A stretch of 64,000 nt of DNA from Echinococcus granulosus. Its lineage: Eukaryota > Platyhelminthes > Cestoda > Cyclophyllidea > Taeniidae. Numbering within the stretch: the stretch's first letter is position 1; every line of letters begins with the position of its first letter. The stretch covers positions 346,629 through 410,628 of the forward strand of contig NW_020170396.1 in NCBI RefSeq assembly GCF_000524195.1. Reading direction: 5' to 3'. Below, piece after piece: positions 5,101 through 36,715 of this stretch. Both the position numbers and the translations under genes were made by a program. The notes beneath the pieces were generated by a model. The model was given only the letters and a program-made list of their open reading frames with translations. It made no database searches and was not told where the DNA came from.

Positions 5101-7452
5101 AATTCATGTGATTTTCGACCTTGTCTACTTCTTCTTCCTCTTCTTAGTCATCTGATTTTTAGTGTTAATCTGCCTCCCTTTATTTGCTTCCTTTAGCTAA
5201 CTACAAGAGTTCGGAGAAGGGCCAAATCATTGAACGGGAGGGTCCAAAAGCTCGTAAGTAAAACAGTAGCAGCAGCTCTAAAAGTTTAATTCTTGCCAAT
5301 GCGGAAATCAGTAACACTATTTAACCACTTTTAGGTGCCTACACGCCTAGGTATGAGACTTCCGGCGGGGACGTCCGCGCTTTCCCCTGTACGTCTCCTT
5401 ATTGCTATTACCTTATGACCAAGTAGGTGGAATGGGATCGTGTCGTTAAGTGCCTCGTTTCTTCTATTAGACGCCGAGTCCGAGCGGAACGTGAAGACTC
5501 ATGAGTGCAAACAGCGCTGCATGGAAATGCTGGTTTCCACAGGTACAACACTAGACTACCTTATATAATGCCATCTATGGAAGGAAATTTTGTAATTTGG
5601 TCTTAACAGATTTTCTTCATTGTTTCTTTCAATAGAATCCTTCAGGGGGCGCCCAGGAGCGGTACGTCCAAACAAATGCCTGACTAGATTTGCCTCATTT
5701 TTTTCCTTCTGAAAACCCTTTTAACCTCTCTTTCAGGCTGAGAGTGATGAGACTGGTATGTTCGCACACTATTCCGCTGTTTACTCCTTTAACAGAATTG
5801 GCATTCACCCGCGGATGTGATAAAGATAGTGGCAGTATAATGGCGGACCAAAAAATTCTAGAAAATTGACATCAACCTTCGGTCTATGTAGTTGTTTTGT
5901 CTATTTAGCTGACTATACAACTGATGAGGCTGAACCCTACCCGGTTTACAGTACTTTCCGCCCGGAGGTGAATTCCGATATGGACAAGTATCTCAATGAG
6001 ATGCGCATTGAGCTGAAAAGCGCGGAAGTGCCAGAAAACCGTGTTATGGAAGGTCGCGTCTTCTTCGATCTGAAGGAGCCCGCCACTGTCGAGAGCATTG
6101 GAATCGACATCAACAAAACTCTTGCCATGACCAGTCCCGATGGCAAAGTTGTTATTGTGAGAGCAATGAATTTGCAAGTATTTTAGACCTAATAAGTATT
6201 ATTGAGTAAAGTTTAACTCGTTTTAGTTTGATGGGTATTTTGAACCCAATCGTACCGAACTCACCTAGACATACTACTTACAAGAAAAAAGTAACCAATG
6301 ATTAGGGTCAAGGTGGGCCGAAGGGAAACTCAATTTTCTGCTTTCCTTGCAGCCTTCCCGTGATAATAGGAGCTTTGCACCCGAGTTGAAACTCCTTCCC
6401 AATCGTCAGCTGCCACTGGTTTTGCCTGATACAGGGTCGCAACCGACGGACCCTTCAGCCGCACGTCGCTTGCCAAACGATTTCGCCCTGATTGAGACCA
6501 TCGCCAAGAAGGCACCACTCCAAGCCGGCCGCAGCGCTATTCCCTTTAAAATCTACGTGCCTGAGAATCAAGTACCCACATTTACCTACACCTCTCTTAA
6601 AGGTCCCAGTGTAATCAGCAAGTGGGTGCCGTTTCGTCAGTGAAGTGATTGGTTTAGCGGGTGGTGTAAGACGTCTTTTTCCCCCTATTTTAGCTATTCC
6701 GCGGAGGCTGTAGTCCGAATGGGTGGACGGACCGAGAGGACTGGCCGTGTGCCTGTAAAAGTTCCTGCTCTGGGTGAGAAAAATGTGGGCTACAGGGACG
6801 AAAACAAGAACTATGAAATCTTGGTAAGCACCAATTTGGATTTTTAAGCCCAGTCGCGACAAAGAGCATCTCCGACGGCTCTGTTTTGCAACGCACATTT
6901 CAGGTTAACAACAAGTACTTTACCAAGGAAGAAGGATTTGATTACGCCCTTGGCTATACAGAAAGTGATACGGGTTATGATAAGCCGAGCAAAGTCTATG
7001 CTAAGGTGCTCCGAGTGGTCAAATGTCCTGCGATTAATCTAAACGAGAGGACGTACGTGGCCGATTTGGGCAGCGCCAGTGTGTCTAGTAGCAAATCCAA
7101 CCCGGTTGTTGATAAATATCGACAAAATCCAGCGAACCCATCTGTAAAAAATGATTGGGACGCCAATGGCTACGATGAGAACAACGTCGTCACCTCCACC
7201 ACTCCTACTGTTAGCACTAGCGCCTTCACTTGTGACTACTTCCTTGAGGTGAGTCACCATTTACCACTTTAAAATATCGGATTTACTTGAAGAGCAGTAA
7301 TACGTATTTTGCTGTCAAACTACTAGCTTACTGTGGATGATGAGGTCTACAAAGGGCCAGTTATCTTGGTCGACCAGTACGCCGACAACGCTTCCAAACG
7401 CACTGACATCAGTCCCCTTTCCAAAAGAAATGATTTCAAAATCTCTGTGTAG
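2125..7452 (+). CDS. Micro-exon gene encoding an arrestin-fold protein (21 exons, about 599 aa)
   Basis: Proposed exons: 2125-2140, 2479-2526, 2863-2874, 3144-3194, 3454-3492, 3928-3984, 4077-4091, 4429-4455, 4701-4760, 4844-4918, 5034-5087, 5197-5253, 5335-5388, 5471-5542, 5636-5661, 5737-5755, 5909-6156, 6353-6621, 6694-6823, 6904-7248, 7327-7452. They sum to 1800 nt with one open frame. The first 14 introns are all phase 1, so exons 2-14 are exact multiples of three. The micro-exons encode a basic, Ser/Tyr/Gly-rich N-terminal region of about 225 residues without an obvious signal peptide. The last five exons resemble an arrestin N lobe (GRVFFDLKEPATVESIGIDI near residue 280, IPFKIYVPEN, then ISNYSAEAVVRM) and C lobe (AFTCDYFLELTVDDEVYKG, then PVILVDQY near the end). 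Arrestin-fold proteins are usually scaffolds for receptors or membrane traffic; the partner here is unknown. Exon 15/16 is the only phase-0 break in the micro-exon part. Some small exons could be alternative. Confidence 0.75.
2863..2874 (+). other. 12-nt micro-exon of the arrestin-like gene
   Basis: Only twelve bases separate an acceptor (TTTTTATTGCAG) from a donor (GTAAGC). In phase 1 they add the codons for Ala-Pro-Ser-His and keep the frame between exons 2 and 4. Exons this short usually need special splicing enhancers, so this one is likely to be alternatively included. Confidence 0.6.
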
Positions 7453-11034: not shown

Positions 11035-11800
11035 TAGCTTCCGGTTTTGGTAATGGGCAACTGAGGCCTCCACCGTTGTGCCCCTACCGGCTAACCTATT
11101 CTCCGGGCCAAGCCAATATCTGCCTATTCCTCTATAGATCGATGGTACCTAGTCTGACTGAGTTTTTTGTCTCCAAAGAAGCGGAGACCGCTACGCTGGA
11201 AAAAGCGGAAAACGAACCCGATCCTAAAGGTCAATTACCTTAATTTCTATTCTTGATTGCTAAAAGCCTAAACACAATGGAATAAGGGTCTGTGCTGCGG
11301 ATCGGAGAATCTATCGTGACCCCTAAGGAAGGCCTGATGGTAGCGTCTACCTCCATCAACTACCCCAGTCCCGTGTTCTGCAGGAACGCTATTCACAAAT
11401 TAAGAAACACTAGGTGTGGTCTTGAACTGTCTGAGAAGTTAATTACAAAGTTGTCTACGGTATCTGTATGAGGACATCAATGAAGTAAACATGCGATATC
11501 TTCTACACGTCCCCAATAGCTGAAAAAATCCCAAATAGTTATGATTGGATAGCACTGAGGCGGGTACACAATGGCAAGGAGCAATGGACGCGAAACCCTA
11601 CCCCCATGGATTTATACTAAATTACACCCCTCATTAAATGCCTCTGCGTTTAAACCGGTGTTCCTGCGGCTGGAAACAGACACGCATGATGGCCAGCCCC
11701 GACCCCTCTATGCGTCGGCAATGCATATTCTACCATAGTATCATGTCTTCTTTTGTCTTCAGGTAAGTCTCGGAGCGCTACAATACACTGACGAAGATGG
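11035..11800. repeat. Diverged repeat, copy A, split in two pieces
   Basis: Sequence at about 11055-11090 matches about 16400-16435, and sequence at about 11690-11795 matches about 16470-16560, in the same order and orientation at roughly 70-75% identity by eye. The two pieces are contiguous near 16.4 kb but separated by about 600 bp here. That extra 600 bp contains the proposed first exon of the second micro-exon gene. Confidence 0.45.
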
Positions 11801-14800
11801 CAGTGATGATGACGATACTGCAACATACATCTACCAAATCTACAGAGCGGTTGCCCACAACTAAGTATTTTACGTATTTCTTCCAAATCAACATCGTTAA
11901 TGTCTGTCAAGAACAAGGGATTGATTGGCAGCCTTTGATGTTTTTGTTAAGGTTAAGATTATTAGGCATTCCTGTTTGTGAGAAAGTAAAAAAATGTCCT
12001 CAGGCATCGCTCCAAATCAGAATGGCTTCAGGTTGGATGAACTGCACTGTTTTATTGATGCCACCAACAGGTAATTTATTGCGATTTAAGACAGTTGAAA
12101 TCAAGGCTAACTAAATTGAGCTGCATTAAGGTTTGTGAAAATTTTGAGGTCACTTTTAGAAGACAACCAGCAGCGGGACCAGGAAGGCCTCAGTTGTATG
12201 ATATAAAACGCCATCTTTTAAGTTTTCCAACATTCATCGGTCGCCGCCTCTGGTCTGTGTCAATCACGATTCGTGCTTCCATTTTCTTCTTCAAATCGTC
12301 AAAAATAAAGTAAGTATTAGAGAATGGGTCCATTTGAGTTTTGAATTGCAATCACCTGCTAGAATGATCATTGTGTTGAATACCGTAGTTGTCAGGTGGT
12401 ACTTTCCTGGAATGTTAAAAAAACGGGAATCTGAAGAACTAGAAAGTAGTCACTCCCTCTCGCTGAGTGTCGATGTTGCGTCAACTGCCACATTCGCATC
12501 GATGTGGTCACTTACTCTAAATAACATAAATGAAGAAGGGCAGTAATTCAGCTCTCACTTTAGTGATGTTGTCGAAGATTATTAATTCCCACTTCTGAGC
12601 CAAAATACATGCGAGGAATCAACGACTTGTCCTCTGATTCATTTGCCTTTTATGTCCATAAGGCACGGAATAGGTGCGGTGGACTTGTAGAACTCCACCA
12701 CACATTTACCCGTGCTGCTGTCATTCAGAATTAGTTTAGGATTGCGTAATATAACAGGCAACCCCCGCTCTTCACTTATTGGTAGGGAGCCCCGTAAGTA
12801 CCACTAAAACGTGTCAAAGCACTTTTAATACAGGGAAAGGATGATACTTGGAAATAAGCTATCTTGTTTAAATCTGTCAAGTAAAATAGCTTTTAACCAA
12901 ATCTAACAAATTAGAAAGCACTTTAGCAGGTGTAAACGTTGGAAATATTTTTGCCTCGATATAATTGATTACTAATATGCCACTGTGGCCAATAACATTG
13001 CCATTTCCCAGCTTTTACCTCTTACCCTTATCATTCAAGGTGTTTCATACCCCTTTAAAAAGTCCTTTGAGTAAGTAGACCTCCTGCTTGCTCCACAGCT
13101 TTGCCTTATCGTTTAGACACTTTGTGCTTTATAATTCAGTGCTCTGCAAATTTGTTAATCTCCGGGTAAATTCGAAAGCTCACAAACCATGGAGACATGC
13201 GTGTAAAAGTGGAGTCATTAGGGCTGTATTTTTTCCCTGAGAAAGGTAGGTGCATATCTTTACATTTGTCATTTACTATTAATTTACTCCAAAATTTTTT
13301 ATATTAACTGCACTCTTATCATTGATACAATAATTCTGATTGACCCTTTTTAGACATGTTAGTCAAAATTTAAGCAAGAACCGAATTGTTTGATTCAAGC
13401 GAAGTTAGTAGTGTTTAAAGTGTAGGCAGAATTAATTCCTATAATGCAGTACAAGACACCATCTAATTGATGGGAATACAAATAGCTCTTTGGACACAAT
13501 GCCGTGGATATTTGGCATCCAACTCAACATCAAGGTGCAATGAGATATAGTTATACGCATACCTTCATTTTCGCGGTAGGTGTAGCGGTCGGTGACAGTA
13601 GAATCTAGCATATCCAATATAGCGGATGCCAAATAGTAGTTCATATCAGCACCTTGCAGCACCACAGTCATTAAGACAAACTGGCCTAGAAGACGCTATA
13701 GACAGGACCCCAAAACACAAAGCGTGGCAGTCGAGTCGCGTAGTACTGAACGGCTTGTATAGTCAACTGTTGAATCGTAACAATATACCCCTTCAAAGTG
13801 GACTTCAACACTTGCCTCTTCGGCGTCATAGTTACCGTAGACCTAGCCGAGAACATGAAAACTACCACGGAGAAAAAGTTGAATCAATATAATGGAAGTT
13901 TGACACAGCATGGGAGTTTGCAATTCTGACGGGAGGTCTGCTTGGACGGCATAGGCAAGATAGGTACCACTGTAGGCTTACGCTGCACTGGATGTGTCAA
14001 ATGTTTGGAATAATCTTGAAGGTCTCTGAGCATCCACCTTCCTTTCATTTTTTTTTTATTTAGCTATCATATTAGTACTTCAAATTATTCTGTATAAGGC
14101 ATTCCCACCTTCTCTGAACTTTCTGTTAAAGATGAATTCTCACTGTTTGGTACACTCGCTTGGCAAGACTCAAGTAGTTTCCCTCTGGCTCTTAGCACTG
14201 GGTCTTCACATGGTCATGCACCACCACCTGTCTGTCCATTGCATTTTTATCGCTCACCGGTCAATTTTTTCAACTTCTGTGTAGTTTAGCTTTCCTTGGC
14301 ACTGAGTTGCTATGCTGGAGGAATATTCCTGAATGTTTGAAACTTTAATACGAATGACAGAGCCGCTTATTAGCGTGAAATAAATCTTCCTCTTTGTGTT
14401 AGGCTTGAGAGTCTTGTTTGCTAATGTTGGCATTTCACCAATGGTGGAATTTACTTGAACAACGGTAATCCAAGTTTGCTAAGTTTGCCATCGAGATGTA
14501 AAGTGCAAATTGTGACTAGCGTAGGTTTTAGTTCATCTTTATATTCTTCCTCCCCTTAAAAGAACCAAAAGAGGAGAAAAAAACTAGGTAATTGACCAAT
14601 AGCAGCGGAAGTAAATCAATGCTCGAGTGGAAAGTCCCATTTTGGAAGGGGTAATAAACCTGAACTAGGACTACATAAAAGACCTGCGTTGAGACTACAA
14701 AGGATGGTAACAATAGTAAATTAGACTGACCTAATCCCATTTACCCAATTACACTGCCATATATTTAAAGGAGGGAGAAATATGGATTAACGAATCTTTC

Positions 14801-17800
14801 AATACTGGGAATGCTTGGGAAGAGTGTTCGTGGCAATCACTAGACTTAAAAGGATCAAATTGCACCCACCATTACGTCAGCATTACGCCATCGATTGCCA
14901 CCTTCCTCTTTAACAGAGTGGAGCCTATCTGTTGTCACCAGTGCCAGCAATTGAGAGATGAGACCACGCCTCGTTTGCAATGGCCTTGCAGCCGCCTTGT
15001 TCTCTTTCCAGCTTCCACCCACACTTAACTTGAAATGCGCCCAATAAAATATAATCGTATGTATTTTTAAACTCAAATGTTAATAAAAAGCCTCCAAGTA
15101 AAGGCTGACGGTTAAGAAAAAGAAGACACTGCAATTAATGGGTTTTCTGTATATGCTTGGAAACTCTACTCACAGTTTAAAATCAGTAGTAATTCAGAAA
15201 AAAGGCAGGCTATGAAGCCCAGTTGGACTTTCGTGAACCAGTTGATAGATTCATTTTGGCTTTTTAGTTGTCTCATTTCCCATAGACACTTCTCACTTTG
15301 CAAATTAGCTTTTGCATTACTCTAGGGCTTAAAAAATATCTTTGATACTCTTGTTTTTTGCTGGTCTTAATAAATAACAGTCTTGAACACTGCAAATTAT
15401 CTTATTTGATCGGCTATGTTTTCAAGAAAGTCTATTATTCTAACTGAATGCAAAAAGTTCAAAAGACGCTCTCCATCATCCAAGCGTTTATTTGATTTGC
15501 ACAACACCTCCTTCCTTTGTTAGAAACGCATTTAACGTGTCAAAACCGACTAACTTTGTCCCACTGCTCAAAATCAGTTTGCGCCGCATGTAGCCCCATT
15601 TGTAGAATAAGCAGCAATGTTACATTACATTGCTTGTAAATGGTTAGGTGGTGCCCAAGTTTTCTTTATCCTTGTTGAGACTTGAAATTACACAACCGCA
15701 CAGCCTACAAGTGAAGTGAGGATGTAAAATTCTCACGCCTCTGAATTCCGACAATCAATTAGGCTGAAGGTTTTACGAGACAGTAATACGTGATCCGAGG
15801 GTGAATCCATGAGAACAAGAAGTAGCCACGACGCAAGACAAGAGGAATGGCTGCATCTGGTGAATATTTCACATTTCTGCCAACAAGGATTTTACTTGAT
15901 AACTGCACTTTGCATTTGAAGGGAAAATTTTGGACTCTAGTGACAGCAATTGCGAATTTGTCTAGATTCTGTTTTGCAGACCTGTCAATTTCCACGTCTA
16001 TCTATCGCCATTAATGTGGAAGTAACTTGAAAAGTTACTTGAGTTCCACGCCATCAGATTTTAACTTAAAATTAAACAGCGAAAGTTTTTGGTGATTAGC
16101 TTCCTGGGTGCGATGTCAAAAAAGGAAGGAGGTGTTGTGCAAATCCAATAGACACTTGGAGGATGGAGAGCGTCTTTTGAACATTTTGCATTCAGTTAGA
16201 ATAATAGGCTTTCTTGAAGACATATAAGACAAATAAGATAATTTTCAGTGCTCGAGACTGTTATTTATTGAGACCAGAAAAAAACAAGAGTATCAAAGAT
16301 ACTCCACAAATGTGATTTTTTTTCCACCTGGCTTGCTGGCCTAAGTTAAATATTGTAATACGTCAATTGTTCGTTTAATTCTCAGTTTTGCTAAAAAGGC
16401 CACTGAGGTCCCCGCCACTGTGCTTTTACCGGGCCGTCCATCATCCGTACCATATTAATGGACCCCAAGCCCTTCTGTTGGTCAAAATTGCATATTCTGT
16501 CCTAGTTTATGCTCTTTTTTAAGTCTTCAGGGAAGTCGCAGAGCTCTACAATGATCCATATTGTAGAATGCAGCCTGCTTGTTTGGGCGCTGCCAGTGCT
16601 TACGTTTGGATGTTCTATCTCATTGATACTCACTAAGCTTTACTAAATATCCTAAGCGCAATCAAATACTGGCTTCACATCCAGTCTCACTGGTGAATGG
16701 AGTGTAAAACCTTTTAATGATATCGAGTTTTGATCGTGCGATTTCAACTTATAGCAATTTAAGGCATCCTCCCTTTCCATACATTTAATTCCTGTTTCCA
16801 CTATCTCAAAGAGTGGTTTTAACAAACTAAAATCAGGAATTACCTTCACGCATTATTTGGATTCTCAAAAGTGAGCCAATTGAGCTGATCGATTTAAAAC
16901 TGTAGCACAACTTAAATATCTCTTATAACTTATCAAATTTGCTGGAATATTAGTTCTAAGTGGATGTTACTAACAAAATTAACCCTTGAAAACACCCCAA
17001 ATCGTTCTTCCTTTTGGCAATCTCCATGCCCTTGTGCCGTAAAATTGGAAACTGTTCTCTGAAAAAATCATCAATTTCTTGGTACTTTTCTAAGCTCTCT
17101 CCAGCTAACATGTTGTAACGCGTTCCCGTTTAAGTCGATACTGTCTACTAAGTCGTTATTCTGTGGTAGTTTGGGGGTTAAGTAGGTTTAAGTTTGTTGG
17201 AATTGATGCACTTCATTTCCTAGTGGAAGCTACCTCCTAATTCGCCTCTTTTCTACTAACTCATTGAGTCTACGGTAATGAATGTTAATATCATCGAAAG
17301 CCTGATGCGAACAAACGACAATTCGGTGTGTTAAATTAATTTGAGTTTGCGTAGAACCTCGTGCTATCCCCCCCTCCCCACCACCATTTACGCCAAAATT
17401 CGGTAGACCAATTCTGAGAGTTGCAGAACAGTGAAATAGAAATCGGCATAAGCTATTAACTTAAGGGGGAAATTAAGTTAGATTTTACCTGGGAGTTCGG
17501 TAGCCATGTGATTGCCGCAGTGGCCGTTAGTCATTGAAGCACGGCGTGAACGCCGCCCCCCCCTCATCGATGCGTCGGAGGGCCTCATCTTGACGCTCAA
17601 ATCACCGGTTGCGCACAGCAATTATTTCTCAAGGTTATTAGTGCGATCTCGTCAGGCCTGCATTGGCTCCTAGGTTGTCGAGAAAGTCGCTGCTTTCTAG
17701 GCAATAAAGTAGCCACTTATTGCTACCCATTGCATGTTTGTGTGTGTGCTTTGACGATTGTACCGGAATTTACCCACACCGTAACGATGGTCTACAGCAA

Positions 17801-20800
17801 GCCGCACTACTTCCTCGGACAACAAGATGCAGGTTAGTTCGACTTGCTTATATCTACGGTTGACACTCAATACGCTCACCACTGTCCAGGTAGACTTGAT
17901 CACCAGACGCGACCGCTAGCGTCAATCGTTTCATTTCAGAGTAATAATTTTTTTCCAAAATGGAAGAGGAGCTTCAAAAATTTTCAATAAAATGGTAGTC
18001 ATATTTGTTGTCTGATGTTAGGCAGTGTTTTGCCAATGGACCTCGACCCTTCCCCTCAACAGCCCCAAGCTTTTACCATCGCGCCTATTCGCTTTGCAGG
18101 CTTTTTATCAAAATCACGCTTATCTCTGGCACTTTTACCCAACTCCAGCGCCACTTTGGAAGAGCAATTTTACTCTAAAATGTCGCTTATTTAGAGGCTA
18201 TAACTTAAAAGTCCATTTTTCCCCTTTAATAACTAGTGACAAAATCACGGTGGAATTTGGATGGCTCTTTTAATCTAGTGATTTAAATCTCACATTTTAA
18301 AAAACCCTAGATGATCTGCATTGTGTGGGCGAAAAAGCAGTCGTCATGTTTTTGATACCTACCTTTGAAATTATCCATTACAATAATAAGAAGTGGTGAT
18401 TATCTGATCAAGGTGGATGGATTGTCTAATTCAAACCTATTGAGTTGTTGATATTCCGTTGATTCAGTACCGCTCTCTTCCGTTTAGGGTTGCCACTGAA
18501 AGGAAGATCGCAATCTGTCCTTGACTGTAAGTGCATGCACAAACCCGTCTAACTAACCACTGTCGAAGAAGCGCCTAAAAGTTATAATTGTCTGCATGCA
18601 TTGGTGACAGCTCACCGACTTCTCGTGATGCTAGAAATACACCTACGAGCAGCATGTATGAGTGGTAAAGGCAAGAACTGTAAGGCTTGCTTCGACAGTA
18701 GGCGGTAGGTAGATCAGCTTCACTTCCCAGTATCTCTCTCACGTGAAAACAAGCTCATGATCTACATGAGTTTGACTACTTTCTTTTGAAACAACCGCTC
18801 ATGTGATAGCTAATTTCTAACCAAAAGTGCACACTTTCAAGATTTCAGGTTGGGTTCTCGCATTTTTAGAAGGCTACCATGAATGTGGCCAACTTTGAGA
18901 TTAAAACTTTCTCCTCATAAATTATGCACCATGAGCGTGCGAGAACTCCTTAGTTGTTTCACTTTATAGCCACGCTGTTGATGAAAAAGGGAAACCCTAT
19001 CCACTGCACCAACAGCCAAAGAAACAATCTAAATGGTACCAAAGGCATCGTGTAAGGAACTTGTGCGTCCACATGACCACCTACATCGCCTCACTTTCGA
19101 AGAGCGGAAATTACAGCCCCCCCCCTCCTGTAGCACAAGCAGCTGTGGTAGAAAAATCCTGACTTCATGGAACCAAAGTGGATCACAGATATGGGAATAG
19201 GAAATATCCTAGGGATGAACAGTTAAGTGATGTGGCACGACGGGTCTACAATTACCAATGGCTGCGCGAAATGGCAAAAAATACCGCAATCTTGCCATTT
19301 TGTGGTTAAATGACATCGCCACTGTTAGGCCACGGGTAATTAAATCCCGGAAATCTCATTTTTTGAATGGTTTTCCCTTCACCAATTGGTTAGTTGGCCT
19401 TCGAAATGTGCCACACAGCTGCTCAAGTGACGGGATGGCTGTGTGATTTCACAAAACCATAAACCTAGCCATTATCTCATGCATTCTCATTTCCAGTAGG
19501 CTTAATGCCCCGGAATAGCGTAAATACCGTGTGAAGTTCTCACTATTACTTGAGCCAAGCCTCACAAGCTGTCGTGTCTCGATAACTCATGAAGTATGGG
19601 GGTATTGAGTGGATTGCTCCATGTCACGACTGCATCCACCTTTATTCGCACTCAGTTTTGAATTATTTTATCCATTCATTCGTAATGTTTGGGTTCCTTG
19701 TTCGCATTTTATGCCCTCAGTTTCATTCTGTGATAGCTCTAACGAATGGGTTTCTCCTTGATTTCCCCCCTTGGTTCAATTTGCATTGCGCGTTTCGTTT
19801 TCTTAATATGAAAGATTGTTTTGAGAAGATTTGTTACTCTACACCAAATAAGTGTAGGTACGGATCCACATAGCTCATTGTATCCACAGAGCAGAGCTTT
19901 AAACGGGTAAAATTTCCCCACTCGTTGGTACTTTCATCCACCTCAAAAATTTGTTTCTGTTCATTATTTTACAAAAAAAAAGTCGAGTAGAACCGCACCT
20001 CATAATGGGTTTTGAATGGACTAAAAGCAATTTTGGTTCATAATCCTTCCATCCTTGCTTGTAGTACGACCTTATTCTGGCGCCTTCCCTCGCATACGTA
20101 AGTTTACCGCAATTCGTGAGTCTTAATGTTAGAAATTAGTGGAAAGTCACAGTCCACAGTTTTATGAACCGCTTAAGGTGAGAGAAATGAAATGCTCACG
20201 TAAGACGCATGCAAAATGCCGATCAGACCACTCACTACATAATCAGGAAGGCATTAGTCTTAAATTCCTCTTCAATTTATGGCCAAAAGCAAATCCACAA
20301 AGGGTTAACTCATACCCGCCATTCCACGAATGAAGAAATAGACTAGTAATTTCTTTTTCATGTAGATGTGCACTCCCCATCGCCGCATGAAAGTGAGTTT
20401 TCATATTCCGTATAAATGGGAGGTTAAAATGAGCCTAGAGCAATCTAGCCGGCATATTTAGACCTCCTTTCTCTACCTCCTTTTTTTCCCTAAGCACTGC
20501 ACATGAATCTGCTTTAGTTGGCAAACAACGCTTTATTCATTTTTCTGCTTTTAAAGCAAATGCTTCCCAAATCACATGCACGATTTCCGTTGTAATAATG
20601 ATAATCTAAATCCTTTATCACAGAACACTACTTGCAGGAGTATACCAATGGAAGAGCAAGGGGTGAGTGGTTAAGTGATGTATAGAAGCATTTGCTCTAT
20701 GCGCTCACTGACGCTGCTTTCCCCCGTTTCCCTGAAGCTCCAAGTCCTCTCAAGCCGGCGCCAAAAACTTCAGCCTTTAAATCTGGTGTGTTTGCCTTAA

Positions 20801-23800
20801 TCTTGTTAATAGACGTGCTCCTTCCCATTTAGCACTTTGGATGGAAAGGAACGCACATTATATTACCTGCTCTGCGATCAGGCAAATTCATCCCCACGAA
20901 CTGGATAATTGCACACACGAAAATAGAACTTCTCTTGTGAAAATTTGAGACCACAAAAAGATTTCATGCGAAATAAATTCACTGAAATAGGTCAGGGCAG
21001 AGCAAGTTGCACCACCCCATCGAGCACCTCAGGGCGACATCTAGAACTCATCATTGGATTGGATTTGAGAGGAAGCAGTGTGAGGGACGCCTTTGGGGGG
21101 GAGGGGGGGAGTAGAGTGGATCCACTTAATTTTTATCCTATTGCAGGTCAAACAAAGCCGATCTGGATAGATAGGAAGACAGGGCGTGGTAGGTGACAAA
21201 AATTAACATCACGTACCCAAATTACCCGGAGTAAATTAAGTAATATCCATTAATCCTCGGCATTGAAGAGCTCACCCACTGATTGCTGAATGTGCTTTTG
21301 TTTCCATGGCCTAATCGTGCATGCCTCTCGTGCTCCTTTTATGCTGACAAATGTAGTGGTGAAGGGGCCAGAAATTCTCAGTAAGTTCTCTAACTTAACA
21401 AGTATTTACAGGAATTGTGCACACGAAACCAGTGTACACAATAATCAGCATTATTACCACCTCAAGAAGCCACCACAACCCCCGAAAATGCCAACGTCTA
21501 TGCCACTAACACCAATATTCGCATTGCTCGCTGTCCGCTTGACACGCTTAATAGCAGTGAGGATGAGAACGCTGTTTTCAAGAGCTTCAAACAAATATAA
21601 AAAACAATTTATTATGTTTTCGGGGCTATAATTACTTCCTCACGGTTTAATCAACACAAACAATAAGTAAATACATCCAACTCAACACTCGTAACACCTC
21701 GATACACGGCTCTGACGCTTTGCTCTTTCTTTTTCCCAGAGGGTGAAAGGCTGATTCGATTTGAGGATTCCACCACAACTGGTATGTTTGCTTATGTTGC
21801 CAAAAATTGGAATTTACCCCGCATTCTACTTTACGGTTCACCAATAAATGGCTAATTTCACTGTCAGCAATTTGTGTTGTGGGCCGAAATTGTAGCCAAA
21901 TCATTTTACGATTGCTTTAGACTCCCAGTCAACTGAAACGGGTAAGTTGGTTAGCTCTATCTGCGCCACTTCACCTGTGAATAGAATTGTAAAATTGTTT
22001 TGGCCCTTTTCAAAAATATAAACCTTATGTATACCTTATTTGGGGTTTTAGTCCACCGTTTAAGACCAATGCCGCGAGTCAACATTGGTAGGCGAGATAT
22101 GGTTAATCATTACCACATTTCAAAATGACTATTAGCTTTCTCATCTCTCATTTCCTTGCTCACTTTTGCAAAGTACTTTCTACTTAAAGCAGGGAACTTT
22201 TGCCTGTTGGGCAGACTATGCTCATTCATTTTCGATAACTCATCTTCATAGGGGGTCGTTCGCCACGACACTCCCCAAGGCGGACTTCTAGAAGTAAGTC
22301 TGTGCGATGCTGCCTTGTAATGCGCAACACGATTTTCAGAGTATTGGAAGCCGTAATGCCATGGAAATTTATGGTAGCTTGCATTTGCTTTATCCACGAG
22401 ACTGTCCGTATTGTTTACATTGAAAACTGCTTCACTGGTGTGACCAATTCAGCTCTTCCAAATAAAAAGTTATTTATCGAATGTAGCCCGGTCATCTCGC
22501 TACAAAAAAAAACCTTGAATACAAGAGGGAAGATCAGCCGTTAGCTGCTGAATTATGGTAGGAGTGGTTCCATTTAAAGCAGCACTGAAGCGCATTTCCC
22601 ACTTCTAGGTGCGGCCAGACACTATTCTTCCAGTCCTTCCCGCCGAGACACCTCTCCGTATCGGCGCACCTCACCCACTCGCAATGACTGTAAATTCATG
22701 TTCACATTTATCTCTTCGGTTATTCCATGCACTACCCATTTAGTAGTCCATTTTACACGCAGGTCGTTGTTCTCTGGTATCCAATCCAAACTCTGTCTGT
22801 AGCAGTTCAATTGGATGCTTTGTGCCTCCAGATAATGCTTCATTTATTAGTTTAATAGGATAACCACTATTGTTCAATACTTAAATTAGTCACACATTAC
22901 TTGCCACCTCAGAGGTATTAAGAATTATCTTCACCAACAGCGATAAATTCTCCTTGATCACATAAAGCGGCGACGTCGCCGAAAATAATCTACTTCCACT
23001 CATTGTTGTTCCAACCGAAATTTTATCGCCTCTGAAATTATAAAGTTAGCAGAGCACTAAGTTTACCATGCAGATTGATTGTCTGGGTCAGGTGAGTCAT
23101 TTCCATCAGAAGGTTAGGCTAACACAGGATCTTGTCACAAGGGCAGTAAAAGATGGCACATGATGTTCCGCTAAATGGTAACTCAGTAAGAGGAGTCTTG
23201 GTTGCTGTCGACATTAATTGGGTTCCGCATTTGTTGATCTTCCAAATTTCTACCAATCTGGTTTAAGTGGGAATCAATAATCGATTTATCAATTATCTAG
23301 TTACTGACACCATTCATTATATACCAAGATCAAAGAGCATTCATTCAGTTCCAATAGGACCAAAATACGCTCCATATTACGAGCTTTTGGAAGCAGCTTT
23401 TAAAAAGCACTGTAAACTAAAATGCGTTTGAGGTGAAGGGAAAGGGGGGAATGCTATCCCACAAAAAATTAAAAAAAAAACTTTTCAAAGCACGGTAGGA
23501 CTATGCCTACACAGAGTGGTCCCAAGATTTGTTGTGTTTACATTAGTAATAAATAAATAAACCTGAAACCGATTAACAGGTTATATGGGTGTTGCACCCC
23601 GAGACCCCGAGACGGAAGAAGGCATGACACTCGAGTAAATTACTTATTTACGCCCTACAGAAGGGCTGAGGGGCTACCGGTGTGGCCTAAGGGCCGTGCC
23701 GCCTAGCCTTAGTGGCTGCAAAATCAAAACGAAGAGTTAAGCCAATAATGAAAGAATAACGGGAGCAACACCTGCTAAGGTGTATGGCAGGCTGCACTTT

Positions 23801-26800
23801 TACTCATAAACTTCATATCCATACATAAGACTACATTGTCTGCTATCGTGAAATAAGCATTAAAAGCTAATTTTCCTTCCTTGTTGTAGATTACAGGTAT
23901 GGAAGTTATGCAAGGTTCAACTCTCCACGTCGTTATTCTCCCAGTGAGTTCGGCTTAGCACTAAACAACTGCGTCGCCTTTACTCATAAGAGAGGCCAAA
24001 TAAGCTTAACTGTAATTATTATTACTCAAAAATATTCCTTAAAATTTTTACTACAAATGATGGGCGGAGCAGTGATGTTGTTTTCTTATTCCGATAAATG
24101 CAACATTCATCTCAATGACTACCAGTACTGACTGAAATGGGGTTAAGGAGGCAGCATTACGCCTTGTAAGATATTTTGGAGGAGGCTACAATTTCTGTAA
24201 ATGCATTTGGGCACGCAGCACCTTTCAGTTACAACCCTTCGTTCCGTCCCCACCCCCGCTCCCTACTCAGCTTGACTTGATGTTAACGAACATTTTTAGG
24301 GTGTCTGTGCCCATGCTCATTAGCATGCACAGGTAATCCAGGTAATGCACGGGTGACCCCTGTACACGTCTATTCATTGCATTCCTTTTAATAGACAGTC
24401 CTAATGACAATCTGGGTACTTACTTTGTGCCAAGGCCACGAGCCAACTAGCGAAGTGCACCTCTCCTGATTTCCCACTCTATTTGTTATGCCAGCACCGG
24501 TTTAACAAATTATTTGTATATTTTCAGTAAAAATTTGCCTTAACCTTGATGCAAGCAGGTTGATTTGTGTCTTTAAAAATGTTTTTGGAAAATCAGGGTT
24601 TGACACCTCTTCATCATCATCATCGACTTCTTCGTATACTGCGAGCTTGCCGAGCTCAAGCTACTTCCAAACAGGTAAACAGTAAAATGAGTTTACTTCA
24701 ACAAGTTTGCTTTGACTACTTAATGTACCATATCTACTATCTTAACGGTTTTGTTAAAACTTTTAACTGTTGAACCAGAAAATGGGCATCATATTGCTTT
24801 TCTCTCTCTTCAGAAGTTTCAGAAAGTGAAACATCGACCTCTTCAGGATACAATTCCGGAGGTGGGTTTGCATTGCTAATGCCTGAAAGTTAGCCACTTG
24901 GCCAGCTCACCTCATTTTTACACCCATTGCCATTGTCTTTTACTCCTTAGTAAAAAGGGTGGCATTCCTTGCGACATAATCAAGCTCTAAAGCAAAAGCA
25001 CACACCACTTGAAATTGTTTTAAGTGCAATTATTGCAATTCCCTTTTGTTTATAAAATGCATATTATTTAAAAGTCATTACCTTGAGCATATGATAATCA
25101 AGCAAAAAGCAAGAAGTGAAACATGCAAATATTACCGGAAGAAAGCCTTTTAACATGATCGGAAATTTAGTCAAAAGCGTGGAAGTCCTTTTCGCCAAAA
25201 TGTCAGCCCCTTCAAATACCGCAGAGTAGGCACCAGGAGTTGATGTTAAAAAAAAAATAGATTGACTTTCGTTTTAGTGATTTTGATGACATAAATCACT
25301 TTTTCAGCTTTCGATTGGCGGAATTATCATGGTGCACGATACCTTGGTCAGAGTCCAAGTCGTAAGTTTGCGTCCACCTAAGCATTGTTAATGTTCATTT
25401 CATCCGCCCTCAGCGATCAGAATTCATTTAAAGTCGCCTTTTAAAGTAAAGAAACAAATCATTGAGATGTAAAATTGCAAATCCATCCCATGCTTAGATG
25501 CCCCACAGTCCTACTATTGCAGTCCACAATCCATGACTCCAGTGGGTGGGTTTCAGCCACTTCGGGAACCATCCAAGCGCACACTCACCAAAATCCTTTT
25601 TTTTCTGTTTTGCATCGCCACTGCACCTGTCCCACAACCTCTCGCACATCCGATTTGCTTTAAACCTTTCTCTTTTGCCTTCAGGTACTAATAAAATTAT
25701 CATGCTGAAACCGCGCTCTGGTCGGTCCCCTCTGCGTAAGTGGTCTCACCGAGCAACAACTACTGACATTTGCTTTGACGTTTACTACATGGCATTGTTT
25801 GGTATTTTCAGAGAGCCTAGTCCCCCATCTCCACCATTGTGGACAGCGTCAGAGCAAGTGCACCCACAAAGGTAGTCGTCATCTCATCAATCACAATAAC
25901 CTTATTCACGGCGTCTATAAGGAATTTGATGTTTTAGCCTGCCAACAAAGATGTGAGCATTGCAAACCCCCGGGTAGGCCATTTTTATTTAAAATTTTCC
26001 AAATTTATCATTAAATTGCGTTCGGTGATTTGTCGGAAGTGTGGTAGACTACTTAACCGCACCTGTGACAGTAGAGTACCTCTGAAGTGTCAATGATTTT
26101 AGAAATGGTCAGATGAAACAACTTTGTAGCATGATGACAGCCTTCCATATCCCAGGCATGAACACCGAATGTTTGTGTGTGTACGGGAGAAAACAAATCA
26201 AGTGCTTGAATGGCCTTTGCCTCCATTTAATCCAGAATTCGATGGAAGCATATCTGGTGCTGTTATCTGACTTTCATATAACAAGTCGATGCCACCATCA
26301 ACCTCTTTTCCTGATTTTCAGAATTCCGTCGCTCGGTCTCACGGCGCAGCCGTGCAAGTATGTCTTAATGCATGATTTAAATCCCTCCGACTGAGAACTT
26401 AGAAAGCAAGAATTCACCAGCAGCGCTAGTAGGACATCAATGCTAATGGTTTTTTTGTTTATTTCAGCCTCCAAAATTTTACCCCCGAGGCCTAGTTCTA
26501 ATCTCTCGTTCTTTGAGGGTTAGTGATCTATTTTAGAGTTTAGTTTCCTCAAATTCATAGATGTAGCGTCGGCAGGTAATCCGACGCACCAAGGCTCCCA
26601 TTACATAGATTGGGTTAGAAAACACACGAATTTGTAGCAATTTCCTTTTTCTAAAAAGTGTTGCCTTTACCCACAGAATTGTTTCACAGCTAGCTGTAGG
26701 CCAATATCTTTACATTGTCAATCAAGTTACCCTGAGTCTCATCTAATCAGACCAGTCAAATCTTGCCAATTATATGTCAATCGATAATGACCCCAACGGT

Positions 26801-29104
26801 TACTTTGCATCCAGTATTTGTTAGATATTGTTTGCTTTTTATATCTTCCTAGAAACCATTCTACCCGGTCCTAGTATGCCTCTGCATCCTGTCACTCCAC
26901 TCCGTTATGGTAAGTGACACCTCAATGAAAATATTCAAAACCAAGTTGCCTATCTGGCGCTTAAAGAAAGGACTGTTGGTCCAACAGTAGTATGGTTGGT
27001 AATTAAAGTCCCCAATTCTCTACAAAGTGGGTGAAAATTTTTGATGGTAGCACACTTATTGTATGGCGGTTTATAATGAGTTAGGACAAGTGGCGAATTT
27101 CGGAATAAAGAGAATTAATGGCATTTTTATTATCTTAATTAAGTAGATTATTCTCTTCTTCTACCATTAAGATGAGAGTGAAACGTATTCGGATTCAAGC
27201 AGCTCATACTACGGTGAGCCTCATAAACTCATTCCTCTGGCCACGAAAAAAGATCACCATTAAGGCTGGTTATTTATTAAAGCAGTTTTATTCCTTTTTC
27301 AGAGGCGATACATTAAATTTTGATTGATATTTAAATTTGGAACTGCTTTGATGCTATTTTGGAGTGAGACGTTTTATCTGCGCTTTGAAATTCCAACATC
27401 TAGGATTATGCATTTTTATGCCACCCATGGTAGCTTATGGCCCACCTCATACTACTGTTAGTGTTATAAGTCTACAACCATTGAAATCTAAGCTCCAGTT
27501 AATGTCGGTAAGATTGACCACTTCAACGAAGGGGAAGCGACATCCAAACTGACTAGACTGACCAGCATCTAAGTCGCCTGATTATTAACCTGCCTTAGCC
27601 ACATAGGCAAAAGAGAAAGTAAAACCACAAGTGGTGTACTACTCCTATCATTTGTTTTGTTTGGCATCGTTTACTTTTGAGTGAACCTCGTGTATAGGCT
27701 GTGGTTCTATTCGCTGTGGATATGGTAATCTGGAGCTAACTTTTTATTCATTATCACCACAAGCTATTACTCCATCCATGTTTTCAAGCCTTTTCTTTAA
27801 ATCCACACTAACATTAATATCATCTTTTGCATAATTATTTAGCACTCCTTTTTTTGTACTAAGATCACTTGATTTCCGACACTTTGCACCTTCATTCCCC
27901 TGACAAAAGGAAACTGGCGTAACAACTACTACACTTTTACTCTAGTTCCGACGCGTAATTATATGCGAAATGCATCCCAAGTGAGAGGTAGAGGTACGTC
28001 GCCTCTTCCCCTACTCGTGTTGACTCTTGTGAAGCAGACTTAGACAAAGACCACGGTGTGACTAACCTCACTCAGGTGGTCGGGTCCAGCTAACTTGGTG
28101 CGCACCGCTAGATGTGCGCTCTTTATTCGGGTAGGCTCTTGCTGTCACCACTTGTCCCATTCGCCTAAGCAGCCTATCTCAGAGCCATTGAATAAAAGTT
28201 TAACTGCTTGTGATGTCCTAGAGGGGCATTATTTGTCGGCCTTGGAGGTAAAGCAGTTCTGCTAAATAAAGTCGCGTAATCATTCATCCAAATGAGGCTC
28301 CACTTTTAGCACTTGGATTTTGGTTGGAATTTTGGTAATGGATAGGAAATGTTTTTACCTTTTGAATCGGTTAAAATGGATGATAATGGACCCATCGGAC
28401 GGTCGAAGCGCCATCACACCAACAGGGCGGCCTAATTACGAAAATAATTAAGCGCAACTGTTTTGTTTCTGGCGGGATGTAGTGCCGGTCATTTGAAGGC
28501 ATCGGATGAAATGTAGGGAGTCTGTGCTATAAAAAGACAATTTTATGGTGTAGAGAAAAACAAAAGGACCCTGATCTCCTTACCACTGCAGTTCCCAACA
28601 TTCGTTAATTAGGTTGAGCAGACTTTTTTTTAGGTAAGCCTTAGATGGTTACCTTGTCACTAAAGTGTCATTTTGAATGGATAGGAAATGTAAACACCTC
28701 TTAATTAGTCGCTACGCGTTTTATGGTGGACTTCCATATATATATATATATATTCCTTAGCCAACACTAACCCACATCCCCAGTGTTTAGAAAGTTCTAT
28801 TTTCAATTTTATTTTTTGCCTTTTTTTAAGCACGAACACACGGTCGTCTTAATGGCAACCTAGAGAAATGGCTGAATGATGGTGAGTACAAAGTATTTCC
28901 TTTAGGCAGGTTCTTCACGTTCCTTCGCCTATGGTGGTAATTTTATCACAATCACGTGCCTTTTAGTGGGTTAAATTTTCAACGCCAGATGACTACGTTC
29001 AAGAAACAGCAATCTTGAGATTGAGTATAAGATATTCCTCATCTATTTTAGCCGTAAAAAGCAGCTATTCGCCTGCCGCCATCAACAATTTTAAGCAAAT
29101 GTAG
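11142..29104 (+). CDS. Giant micro-exon gene for a Ser/Tyr/Arg/Pro-rich low-complexity protein (about 35 exons, about 522 aa)
   Basis: Proposed exons: 11142-11229 (ATG), 12740-12793, 13222-13245?, 18488-18526, 18970-19035?, 20065-20097, 20366-20392, 20624-20662, 20738-20785, 21147-21188, 21357-21380, 21740-21781, 21921-21941, 22052-22087, 22252-22293, 22609-22689, 23890-23943, 24300-24332, 24395-24415, 24597-24674, 24814-24861, 25308-25361, 25498-25545, 25685-25735, 25812-25871, 25938-25973, 26322-26357, 26468-26518, 26853-26909, 27172-27213, 27493-27507?, 27698-27724, 27946-27993, 28831-28881, 29052-29104 (stop). Every internal exon is a multiple of three in phase 1, and no junction in this order creates a stop. 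The peptide has RS/SP-rich parts (SPSRRDTSPYRR), acidic Ser/Tyr parts (DESETYSDSSSSYY), Tyr/Arg/Gly-rich parts and Cys-rich pieces. No signal peptide, membrane segment or known domain is visible. Query-marked exons are weakest, and the ATG exon is uncertain because its donor (GTCAAT) is poor. I do not recognise the family. Confidence 0.6.
13563..13842 (-). pseudogene. Broken exon of an unrecognised protein, opposite strand
   Basis: On the minus strand an acceptor (CTCGGCTAG) is followed by 280 nt that read as protein-like sequence: VYGNYDAEEASVEVHFEGVY, then YDSTVDYTSR, later MNYYLASAILDMLDSTVTDR. It ends at a good donor (G|GTATGC). One in-frame TAG at 13698-13696 interrupts it after 48 codons. 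The composition is much more protein-like than other noncoding open frames nearby, and it lies antisense inside a long intron of the second micro-exon gene. It may be a decayed duplicate of a host gene or a piece of a mobile element. I do not recognise the family. Confidence 0.4.
15337..16301. repeat. Long inverted repeat (hairpin or foldback element)
   Basis: The left arm 15337-15518 and right arm 16121-16301 are inverted copies, roughly 90% identical by eye over about 180 bp and separated by about 600 bp. The arms share blocks such as TATTATTCTAACTGAATGCA and CAACACCTCCTTCCTTT. No open frame in the spacer looks like a transposase. It lies in the proposed intron 13246-18487 of the second micro-exon gene. 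A non-autonomous foldback/MITE-type element is likely; transcribed through, it would form a long hairpin. Confidence 0.75.
16386..16565. repeat. Diverged repeat, copy B
   Basis: This is the contiguous version of the repeat that is split at 11035-11800. Shared blocks include the CCACTGAGG / ACTGAGG segment with a following TACCGG, and a later GCATATTCT with GTCTTCAGG and CTACAAT. It starts about 85 bp after the inverted repeat element. It carries no coding capacity that I can see. Confidence 0.45.
20065..29104 (+). other. Dense core of the second micro-exon gene
   Basis: In these 9 kb about 30 short exons alternate with introns mostly of 100-900 bp. Most have a clear pyrimidine-AG acceptor and a GTAAGT-, GTGAGT- or GTATGT-type donor, and all read in phase 1. 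This core is far better supported than the 5' part (11-19 kb), where exons are sparse and long introns carry repeats. Exons 22252-22293 and 22609-22689 are RS-rich; 24597-24674 and 24814-24861 are Ser/Thr-rich; 25308-25361 and 23890-23943 are rich in Tyr and Arg. Confidence 0.7.
23588..23772. repeat. Short LTR- or MITE-like element, copy 1
   Basis: The segment is bounded by GGTGTTGC at 23588-23595 and its inverted copy GCAACACC at 23765-23772. Its inside shares blocks with 38819-39000: a CACTCGAG/CACTCGGG block, GGCTAC(C/T)GG followed by TGCCGC, and CAAAACGAAG. The TGTTGC...GCAACA ends would fit an LTR or a small terminal-inverted-repeat element. No coding sequence is seen. It sits in the intron between exons 22609-22689 and 23890-23943 of the second micro-exon gene. 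Confidence 0.45.
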
Positions 29105-29187: not shown

Positions 29188-29271
29188 GTCGGGCGCTGAA
29201 GGTCGCAGGTACGCGCTGTTATCTCCTCCCTTTGTTTTGTAATAAGCTCCTTTTGCCTTTCAGCTTGGTAG
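29188..29271 (+). other. Possible alternative 3' exons of the second micro-exon gene
   Basis: Beyond the stop at 29102-29104 there is another symmetric phase-1 exon (29188-29208, 21 nt, TTCATAG acceptor, GTACGC donor). It is followed by an acceptor at 29261-29263, after which phase 1 reads Trp then TAG at 29269-29271. Skipping exon 29052-29104 would give this alternative C terminus. The evidence is splice signals and phase only. Confidence 0.3.
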
Positions 29272-35670: not shown

Positions 35671-35926
35671 GTTGGCTTTCAATGAAATCAGTCAATCAGT
35701 GACTTTCATAGTTTGATTTACGCAGTTCCAGGCTCTAATGATTCCTTTTGATGCATCAGATAATCTGTCTCCCAGAGGAAAATCAGTTAATGTCTCTTCC
35801 TTTTAGGGAAGAGGGCAAAGTAAACGTTCGTTCTCTTTTCAAGTTACTTCTTTTCAGTCTCTTTTATACTGTTCATTAGTTGTCCTTGTTCTTTTATTCA
35901 GGGAAGGTTACATCCAGACAAGTCAG

Positions 35927-36715
35927 ATGGTTCCGGCTCAGACCTTGCTTCAACCACTTCAACAACAGTTGATTGTCGATCCAAATGGTACTGCAGCGGG
36001 TCAACAACCGACCTTCGCCTTTCAAGCAAGTGATGGTAGCCTAATTCCAGTTCAACTTGCTGCTTCACCAAACGGTGGACCTCTCATTATGCTGATGCCG
36101 ACTCAAACTACCGGTCAGGGTGGTCAGCCTGTCTACACCACACAGGCTATTACGACTGGTGCTGCGCCCGCTACCGGAACAATTGATGCCTCTGGGCAAG
36201 CGACTGTTCTTGGGTCCACTGTGGAGGACGAGAATAACCAAGCCGCGGCCCTGCAACAACAACAGACTCAACAATCGGCCGGACAGGTACAATTGGTGCA
36301 CCAGCAGACCGTGACCGCTACTCAGGCAGCGAGTCAGCTGATGCAGCAGACAGCAGCCCAGCAGAGCAGTGCTTCCATGGCTGGTGTAGGTCAGGAGGAG
36401 CCTCTTTACGTGAATGCAAAGCAGTACAACCGGATCTTAAAAAGAAGGCAGGCTCGTGGCAAGCTGGAAGCTCAGGGTCGTATTCCAAAGGAGCGTAGGA
36501 AGTATCTTCACGAGTCCCGTCACCAGCATGCAATAAAGCGGGTTCGTAATGCTGGGGGTCGATTCTACTCGGCACCGACTAGTAAGTAAAATGTTAGTGC
36601 GGAGCTGGACTGACATTCGGTTTAACTCAATATTTTTATCTCATGTGTATCCATGGTTTGCAGTTTTTGCTTTAACGCCTTGTACCTTTTAGCTTACATT
36701 GAAGGAGCTCAGTGA
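35927..36715 (+). CDS. NFYA: Nuclear transcription factor Y subunit alpha (CCAAT-binding)
   Basis: NF-YA joins the histone-fold pair NF-YB/NF-YC and inserts into the minor groove at CCAAT boxes. The first 155 residues are Gln/Thr/Ala-rich, as in NF-YA activation domains. Residues 157-183 form the A1 helix that binds the partner subunits ([20 protein letters not shown]), followed by the A2 DNA-binding part ([16 protein letters not shown], then GGRF). The large exon is 35902-36581, with an acceptor before the ATG that could be a cis or trans splice site. A strong donor (A|GTAAGT) at 36582 and an acceptor at 36691-36692 predict a final 23-nt exon, 36693-36715, ending TYIEGAQ-stop (225 aa). Reading through would stop at 36587-36589 instead. 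A2 differs from the usual HAMARxRGxGGRF pattern, reading [13 protein letters not shown]. Confidence 0.92.
36693..36715 (+). other. NFYA: Tiny last exon of NF-YA
   Basis: After the acceptor TACCTTTTAG the phase-1 reading completes a Thr codon and adds Tyr-Ile-Glu-Gly-Ala-Gln before TGA. The intron 36582-36692 is 111 nt with a GTAAGT donor. Retention would only change the last few residues. Confidence 0.5.

Follow-up and report, generated by a model that had tools for sequence, protein, structure and literature searches.

Micro-exon genes and related exon arrays

In elastin and titin PEVK, disordered, repetitive segments are encoded by extended arrays of small exons, each symmetric and of phase 1-1. 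In parasitic flatworms, micro-exon genes (MEGs) are numerous, their function is poorly understood and they are badly handled by gene finders, according to the available sections of a tapeworm study with counts of 52 for Hymenolepis microstoma and 35 for Echinococcus multilocularis (PMC7653826). In the same sections a MEG is defined by exon structure, as a gene of at least seven exons, at least half of them shorter than 70 nt and divisible by three, with a run of at least four micro-exons, and one H. microstoma family is described as tandemly expanded and sharing a seemingly hydrophobic N-terminal motif (PMC7653826). A narrower description applies to schistosomes, whose MEGs, in the portions of the literature at hand, have micro-exons of 6–36 nt making up more than 80% of the coding sequence (PMC3166049; PMC3961193), encode secreted products (PMC3166049; PMC5825161), with signal peptides predicted for all of the head-enriched MEGs of Schistosoma japonicum (PMC5825161), and give rise to variant transcripts through exon skipping (PMC3961193).

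A new member of this already known class is very probably present in Echinococcus granulosus, at positions 17,787–29,104 of the plus strand of the window (the whole stretch of 64,000 nucleotides that was analysed), where the predicted gene is, again very probably, divided into about two dozen tiny exons, each omissible without a break of the frame. The 26-exon model starts with an ATG exon and closes with one that carries the stop; the 24 internal exons between them measure 21–81 nt, have lengths divisible by three and are all open in phase 1. The frame is complete from ATG to TAG, with zero stops at the junctions (Table 1). Measured against the tapeworm definition (PMC7653826), 22 of the 26 predicted coding exons are shorter than 70 nt and divisible by three, and the longest run of micro-exons in the model is 11, so that a gene consisting almost entirely of symmetric phase-1 micro-exons would count as a MEG by exon structure. 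It resembles the Schistosoma genes, as far as the cited parts of their descriptions go (PMC3166049; PMC3961193; PMC5825161), in its tandem arrangement of small symmetric exons whose skipping is safe for the frame, and it falls outside the narrow schistosome size range, with 7 of its 24 internal exons at or below 36 nt. It differs from the H. microstoma family, as portrayed in the sections mentioned (PMC7653826), in that its N terminus is not hydrophobic and no second locus was found in its own genome, all 10 of 10 protein matches falling at its own exons. The predicted gene lies upstream of the NF-YA gene. The taeniid lineage of this genome is supported by the Taeniidae antigen family PF05596, with four matches here, each above the cut-off of the family, and matches in 0 of 14 control genomes; a spliced-leader fragment, located at one place with one mismatch, was uninformative on lineage.

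Table 1. Features of the predicted gene and its surroundings (window coordinates). Acceptor and donor scores are in bits, from generic metazoan splice matrices not trained on E. granulosus.
Feature	Position	Strand	Length (nt)	Acceptor	Donor	Remarks
Dispersed repeat, outside gene	11189..11782					overlaps first exon proposed in the earlier note
Candidate acceptor before exon 1	17701	+		6.5		would give a 5' UTR of ~86 nt
Exon 1 (CDS part)	17787..17832	+				ATG with A at -3, G at +4; encodes MVYSKPHYFLGQQDA
Exon 1 donor		+			8.6	gttagt, phase 1
Exon 2	18488..18526	+	39	8.1	6.3	open in phase 1 only
Exon 3	20065..20097	+	33	5.5	6.2	
Exon 4	20366..20392	+	27	9.5	8.7	
Exon 5	20624..20662	+	39	6.2	10.1	
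Exon 6	20738..20785	+	48	4.1	8.0	
Exon 7	21147..21188	+	42	11.1	7.4	open in phase 1 only
Exon 8	21357..21380	+	24	-0.6	5.0	weakest; added by eye, could be chance
Exon 9	21740..21781	+	42	12.6	7.7	open in phase 1 only
Exon 10	21921..21941	+	21	5.1	10.8	frame-blind pick: same donor, different acceptor (21868)
Exon 11	22252..22293	+	42	7.0	7.9	RS/SP-rich
Exon 12	22609..22689	+	81	8.6	2.1	RS/SP-rich; weak donor; taken from the weak list for its composition
Exon 13	23890..23943	+	54	8.6	7.4	
Exon 14	24597..24674	+	78	4.6	7.4	Ser-rich; in best phase-1 chain; second open acceptor at 24528, permissive chain favoured 24528-24674
Exon 15	24814..24861	+	48	11.7	9.8	internal in-frame acceptors at +3, +9, +33
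Exon 16	25308..25361	+	54	6.3	5.2	
Exon 17	25498..25545	+	48	4.8	6.8	
Exon 18	25685..25720	+	36	11.7	4.8	open in phase 1 only
Exon 19	26322..26357	+	36	9.7	6.0	RS-rich
Exon 20	26468..26518	+	51	10.1	6.1	
Exon 21	26853..26909	+	57	8.5	10.1	
Exon 22	27172..27213	+	42	4.4	9.5	acidic, Ser-rich
Exon 23	27946..27993	+	48	5.3	8.7	open in phase 1 only; frame-keeping alternative donor after 27987
Exon 24	28831..28881	+	51	6.3	10.3	open in phase 1 only
Exon 25	28910..28936	+	27	9.6	5.0	starts just 28 nt past exon 24, so perhaps alternative to it, or not real
Terminal coding exon	29052..29104	+		6.7		open to TAG, end ...AINNFKQM
Candidate phase-1 exon past stop	29188..29208	+	21	8.9	8.6	also in frame-blind pick

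The exon chain against background

Short phase-1 exons divisible by three had been proposed here by an earlier note that searched for exons of just this phase, and weak single members of such a set can be chance, control strands holding between 0 and 9 phase-symmetric exons per phase per 10 kb strand. That the chain as a whole should reflect chance or search bias is nevertheless highly improbable, as this is contradicted by frame-blind and free-phase tests and by the composition of an unselected chain. The best chain of symmetric phase-1 exons in 19.2–29.2 kb contains 24 exons, of which 20 are identical with exons of the model and four are not, and it scores 96.8, versus a mean of 8.2 (sd 5.8, maximum 30.8) for 120 background chains, from 20 loci of 10 kb on two strands in three phases; the minus strand of the same interval scores at most 1.6. 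On the target strand, phases 0 and 2 likewise score above background (72.2 and 41.1, respectively), as many of the short exons can be read without a stop in at least two phases. When no phase is assumed, 22 of the 27 exons chained in the 10-kb core are 1-1, with a longest run of 13 and a score of 109.6, while 46 control strands reach a longest run of at most 5, a same-phase fraction of at most 0.43 and a score of at most 80.1. The free-phase chain also stood above background in a run over 21.5 kb. Adding a generic amino-acid coding score to that run gave 12 of 31 exons as 1-1 and a total of 105.0, not above all of five controls (75.5–158.8), and this score was dropped as a discriminator, gene and controls not being separated by it.

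The frame-blind test picks exons by splice score alone (sum at least 13). Between 17.6 and 29.25 kb, 18 of 23 exons so picked have lengths divisible by three, versus 118 of 342 in controls (p = 2e-5); the corresponding figures are 3 of 9 for the minus strand of the core and 2 of 6 for 9.0–17.6 kb. Sixteen of the 18 are open in phase 1; apart from the candidate past the stop, these are internal exons of the model, 15 of its 24. Such statistics are thus able to pick a gene of this kind out of raw sequence. Taken with the phase-1 and free-phase chains, they bear out the short phase-1 exons from about 17.8 to 29.1 kb.

The region upstream of the gene

The same note had placed some 33 internal exons over 18 kb, starting at 11,142, in a gene of about 35 exons. 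The part at 17.8–29.1 kb stands, and the part from 11,142 to 17.7 kb does not: the chain for 9.2–17.7 kb has only two exons and a score of 1.9, Ser, Arg, Pro and Tyr amount to 26.5% in the five candidate exons proposed there, and the dispersed repeat listed in Table 1 recurs at no fewer than 39 other places in the genome, in pieces of 65–83% identity (40 of 578 candidates scored). Exons at 11.1–14 kb were ruled out by this chain score, the repeat and the background-level composition. With the 5' portion unconfirmed, the internal exons therefore number about 24 and are spread over 11.3 kb, rather than about 33 over 18 kb, and the total falls to the 26 of the model.

The predicted protein

The predicted product, of 388 residues, is rich in Ser, Arg, Pro and Tyr, which make up 48.5% of what the 24 internal exons encode, versus 24.0% for chance phase-1 exons (sd 2.2, maximum 31.7, 3000 draws). 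Because some candidates had been dropped from the model partly for their composition, this comparison was repeated on the unselected best phase-1 chain, giving 45.2% versus 24.9% (sd 2.4, maximum 33.7, 3000 draws). Codon-position bias in the assigned frame is significant against random frames (p = 0.001) and against chance open exons (p = 0.017; 0.058 without exons 8, 12, 14 and 25, which are weak or were added by hand). The protein is hydrophilic and basic (GRAVY -1.0; 58 K+R versus 27 D+E), with 15 SP/TP sites and 12 SR/RS dipeptides, in agreement with an RS-, Tyr- and Ser-rich protein as originally described; the description as Gly-rich is unsupported, Gly amounting to 5.9%. Searches against Pfam and PDB gave zero matches, and the protein looks low-complexity and disordered, in keeping with the disordered protein of no known domain that the note had considered.

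Exon skipping and exon joining

Skipping any one of the 24 internal exons leaves the frame intact and makes no stop, as had been predicted for every exon. Free combination goes less far: 317 of 325 exon-to-exon joins are in frame and stop-free, whereas the other eight create a stop where exon 2 or 12, each with a final T, meets one of the later exons that start with AA or AG. As every internal exon is 1-1, splicing, if it proceeds as modelled, could retain or omit segments of 7–27 residues without loss of the frame.

One alternative is that the gene is real and its exons are constitutively joined to give a single disordered protein of structural or scaffold type, skipping being minor and the common phase a relic of exon/intron gain, as in the elastin and titin PEVK arrays. 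The exon architecture is indeed like theirs, though a literature search on elastin-like phase-1 exons returned nothing useful. Good splice scores on both sides of many internal exons are in line with constitutive joining, as is the lack of enrichment for in-frame offsets among alternative splice sites within exons, in-frame tandem sites included, and the stop-making joins suggest that free combination is not fully kept. Against it, every single skip is tolerated, none making a stop, and genes of the same architecture skip exons in schistosomes, in the part of the source consulted (PMC3961193). We regard constitutive joining as a serious possibility, with perhaps one chance in three.

Duplication was rejected as the origin of the exons, similarity in an all-against-all comparison of the 24 internal ones being no higher than in shuffles (p = 0.23 for DNA and 0.28 for peptides).

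The reading that we prefer, with belief and doubt about evenly balanced, is a tapeworm MEG by exon structure whose product is a disordered linker or scaffold tuned by exon choice. If expressed, the gene would yield a basic, low-complexity, Ser/Arg/Pro/Tyr-rich and probably disordered product of up to 388 residues, whose most likely role would be that of a modular linker or scaffold bearing many SP/TP and RS sites, and exon choice may tune both the length of the linker and its content of sites.

The signal peptide question

The model protein has no hydrophobic N terminus and, unlike the secreted Schistosoma MEGs as depicted in the sources at hand, no signal peptide was found in it. It could still be a secreted MEG of the schistosome type if its signal peptide is encoded by an exon overlooked upstream or by an unusual first exon, and the signal peptides of the S. 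japonicum head-enriched genes (PMC5825161) and the hydrophobic-looking motif of the H. microstoma family (PMC7653826), both known from partial texts, lend this some weight, as does the stretch 17701-17832, which is open in phase 1 ahead of the ATG. Against this, the ATG of exon 1 lies in good context, and upstream of it the same frame has a stop at 17547 and lacks a further ATG. Furthermore, a scan of 7.5–20.4 kb for an ATG exon that is hydrophobic and has a phase-1 donor found none (0.13 expected by chance), which is weak evidence because the scan is strict (4 matches per 400 kb of control strands) and its sensitivity is not established. On balance, we consider secretion of this kind unlikely.

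With no signal peptide visible at its start, the product is probably intracellular. An intracellular MEG whose product would be a phosphorylatable disordered scaffold, assembled combinatorially inside tapeworm cells in place of varying secreted products, is a more speculative proposal, which we hold only tentatively and think rather improbable as a whole. Nevertheless, some 24 uniform phase-1 exons without a visible signal peptide provide a test of whether the MEG architecture is used only for host-facing secreted proteins.

Additional candidate exons

Within the gene, permissive or automatic chains proposed further candidates that were left out of the model, at 18699, 19656, 21467, 23092, 24300/24333, 25812, 26561, 26988, 28038 and 28592/28622; their sites were weak, their composition was odd or they excluded one another, and some could be real exons. 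Outside the gene, a permissive phase-1 chain adds five candidates at 11.1–13.6 kb and eight between the end of the terminal exon and 35.4 kb. The 21-nt candidate just past the stop possibly marks an alternative 3' end, or else it is chance.

Extent and Phase of the Micro-Exon Row

As the earlier note on this DNA warned that its search had been biased toward phase 1, the exon pattern was retested without a phase assumption. Splice score was the sole criterion (sum of 13 or more; generic metazoan matrices, not trained on this genome) for picking non-overlapping exons of 15-90 nt, and this frame-blind pick returned 23 exons in 17.6-29.25 kb, 18 of them with lengths divisible by three, compared to 118 of 342 in the controls (both strands of 20 background loci of 10 kb and of three window stretches; p = 2e-5) and to 3 of 9 on the minus strand of the same segment. 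The 16 exons that are both divisible by three and open in phase 1 are 15 internal exons of our gene model plus one at 29188-29208. When phase was left free, 22 of the 27 exons chained in 19.2-29.2 kb were 1-1, with a longest run of 13 and a score of 109.6, while 46 control strands did not exceed a same-phase symmetric run of 5, a same-phase fraction of 0.43 or a score of 80.1. Over 9.0-30.5 kb, the free-phase chain contains 39 exons, of which 23 are 1-1 (total 136.6; five control stretches, 21-33 exons each, 1-3 of them 1-1, totals 54.4-84.7), with phases mixed to 17.8 kb, 1-1 to 28.0 kb except for one exon pair, and phase 2 thereafter. With a generic amino-acid coding score added, only 12 of 31 exons are 1-1 and the separation is lost (total 105.0 versus 75.5-158.8 in the five controls), which is expected for a protein so biased in composition, though it does count against the gene model.

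The row of phase-1 micro-exons, proposed to begin near 11 kb, thus holds from 17.8 kb on, while its 5' part is background: the chain in 9.2-17.7 kb amounts to two exons scoring 1.9. The first exon proposed is overlapped by a dispersed repeat, found in at least 39 other genomic places as pieces of 65-83% identity (40 of 578 candidates scored), with a 37-nt piece seen again at 16516-16552; it could be a miniature element. The ATG at 17,787 is preceded by an in-frame stop at 17,547, with no earlier in-frame ATG, and, given this context and the nature of the 5' part, the gene most likely starts there. Once that part is removed, about 24 internal exons are left, compared to about 33 originally counted.

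As to the phase itself, the single-phase chain of the core in phase 1 comprises 24 exons with a score of 96.8, versus a mean of 8.2 (sd 5.8, maximum 30.8) for 120 background chains (20 loci, two strands, three phases). Phases 0 and 2 on the same strand, at 72.2 and 41.1, are also above background, since a short exon frequently stays free of stops in two or more phases. Among the 24 internal exons, none is closed in phase 1, 8 are closed in phase 0 and 16 in phase 2, six being open in phase 1 alone, and phase 1 is assigned as the frame common to all, these counts alone being no test, since the exons were chosen as open in it. Position-dependent base composition in the assigned frame gives p = 0.001 versus random frames, and p = 0.017 versus equally open chance exons (0.058 without the four weakest exons).

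Gene Model and Predicted Protein

The model has 26 coding exons, with a predicted coding sequence of 1,167 nt including the stop, and introns of 28-1,538 nt (median 310). Each of the 24 internal exons has a length divisible by three. Four are uncertain: exon 8 for its poor acceptor, exon 12 for its poor donor, exon 14 for a competing acceptor and exon 25 for the intron of 28 nt before it. Translated, the internal exons have a summed share of Ser, Arg, Pro and Tyr of 48.5%, or 46.2% without the four weak exons, versus 24.0% for chance exons (sd 2.2, maximum 31.7, 3000 draws); five phase-1 candidates from a permissive chain in the 5' part have 26.5%. As some candidates had been left out partly for composition, the test was repeated on an automatic phase-1 chain (24 exons, 20 of them model exons), giving 45.2% versus 24.9% (sd 2.4, maximum 33.7, 3000 draws).

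The predicted protein of 388 aa (Ser 18.0%, Arg 10.8%, Pro 9.0%, Tyr 6.7%, Gly 5.9%) has a mean hydropathy of -1.0, 58 basic (K+R) versus 27 acidic residues, 15 SP/TP pairs and 12 SR/RS pairs. It has no match in Pfam at E up to 1 or in PDB at E up to 0.1. A search of its own genome, also to E 0.1, gave 10 matches, every one at its own exons and none at a second locus, though with exons so short a diverged paralogue could escape this search. A hydropathy scan of 7.5-20.4 kb found no signal-peptide-like first exon; the scan was strict (0.13 expected by chance), so that one may still exist.

Exon Skipping and Possible Role

Every internal intron of the model falls in phase 1, so that dropping one internal exon, whichever it is, preserves the frame; none of the 24 single skips shifts it or creates a stop. 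The claim that every exon is skippable therefore stands for single skips and for nearly all combinations, with a few exceptions: 8 of 325 exon-to-exon joins create a stop, owing to the final T of exons 2 and 12 and the AA or AG at the start of some later exons. This rate, 2.5% versus about 5.7% for random letters, is not strong evidence for selection, since just two exons end in T. No sign of duplication was found among the internal exons, nor any preference for in-frame offsets among alternative splice sites inside exons. Skippable segments would make the length of the protein adjustable by exon choice, and, while a disordered protein from constitutive splicing of all exons is the main rival, the likeliest product would be a disordered protein inside the cell that serves as a linker or scaffold and has adjustable segments.

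Relationship to Known Micro-Exon Genes

Micro-exon genes (MEGs) were first named in Schistosoma, with reports for E. multilocularis and H. microstoma following later. One tapeworm study counts 35 and 52 of them in these two species, respectively, under a rule (micro-exons shorter than 70 nt with a length divisible by three; seven or more exons, half or more of them micro, four or more in a row) that takes in the predicted model, in which 22 of the 26 exons are micro and up to 11 are consecutive (PMC7653826). The narrower schistosome picture is matched only in part: micro-exons there measure 6-36 nt and account for more than 80% of the coding region (PMC3166049), whereas only 7 of the 24 internal exons here are of 36 nt or less, and signal peptides are predicted in all the head-enriched MEGs of one Schistosoma study (PMC5825161), in contrast to the result of our strict scan. 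Variants of schistosome MEGs are reported to derive from skipping (PMC3961193). The predicted gene would be, on its sequence features, a new MEG within an already known class, standing out by its uniform phase, its number of exons and the seeming absence of a signal peptide. No description of it was found in text passages of open-licence PMC papers on tapeworm and flatworm MEGs; one may exist elsewhere, for example in supplementary MEG tables.

Genomic Setting

The genome totals 103.6 Mb in 272 contigs, and the window lies within one of these, C257. The Taeniidae antigen family PF05596 has four matches in this genome (best E 4e-23, all above the family cut-off) and none in 14 control genomes searched likewise, so the cestode assignment is sound.

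Features located in the window
Feature	Position	Strand	Remarks
Open frames	5830-7272	+	three consecutive, upstream of the dispersed repeat; may be exons of one gene; no Pfam match, each taken singly
Dispersed repeat	11,189-11,782
Imperfect long palindrome	15337-16301		arms 15415-15530/16109-16224 (116 nt, 90%) and 15337-15408/16230-16301 (72 nt, 93%); genome search found its own locus alone
Micro-exon gene model	17,787-29,104	+	predicted
NF-YA gene	35,807-36,586	+	PF02045, E 5e-26; downstream of the gene model
Thioredoxin gene	37,983-38,333	+	PF00085, E 5e-26; downstream of the gene model
Carnitine/choline acyltransferase pieces	51699-62101	+	one or more genes; three pieces matching PF00755, two with E about 1e-8 and one with E 0.008

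Among the 20 background loci, the highest chain scores (25-31) belong to the plus strands of L027 (C257:200001-210000), L023 and L018, where 8-9 small symmetric exons can be chained, and smaller micro-exon-rich genes may be present there.
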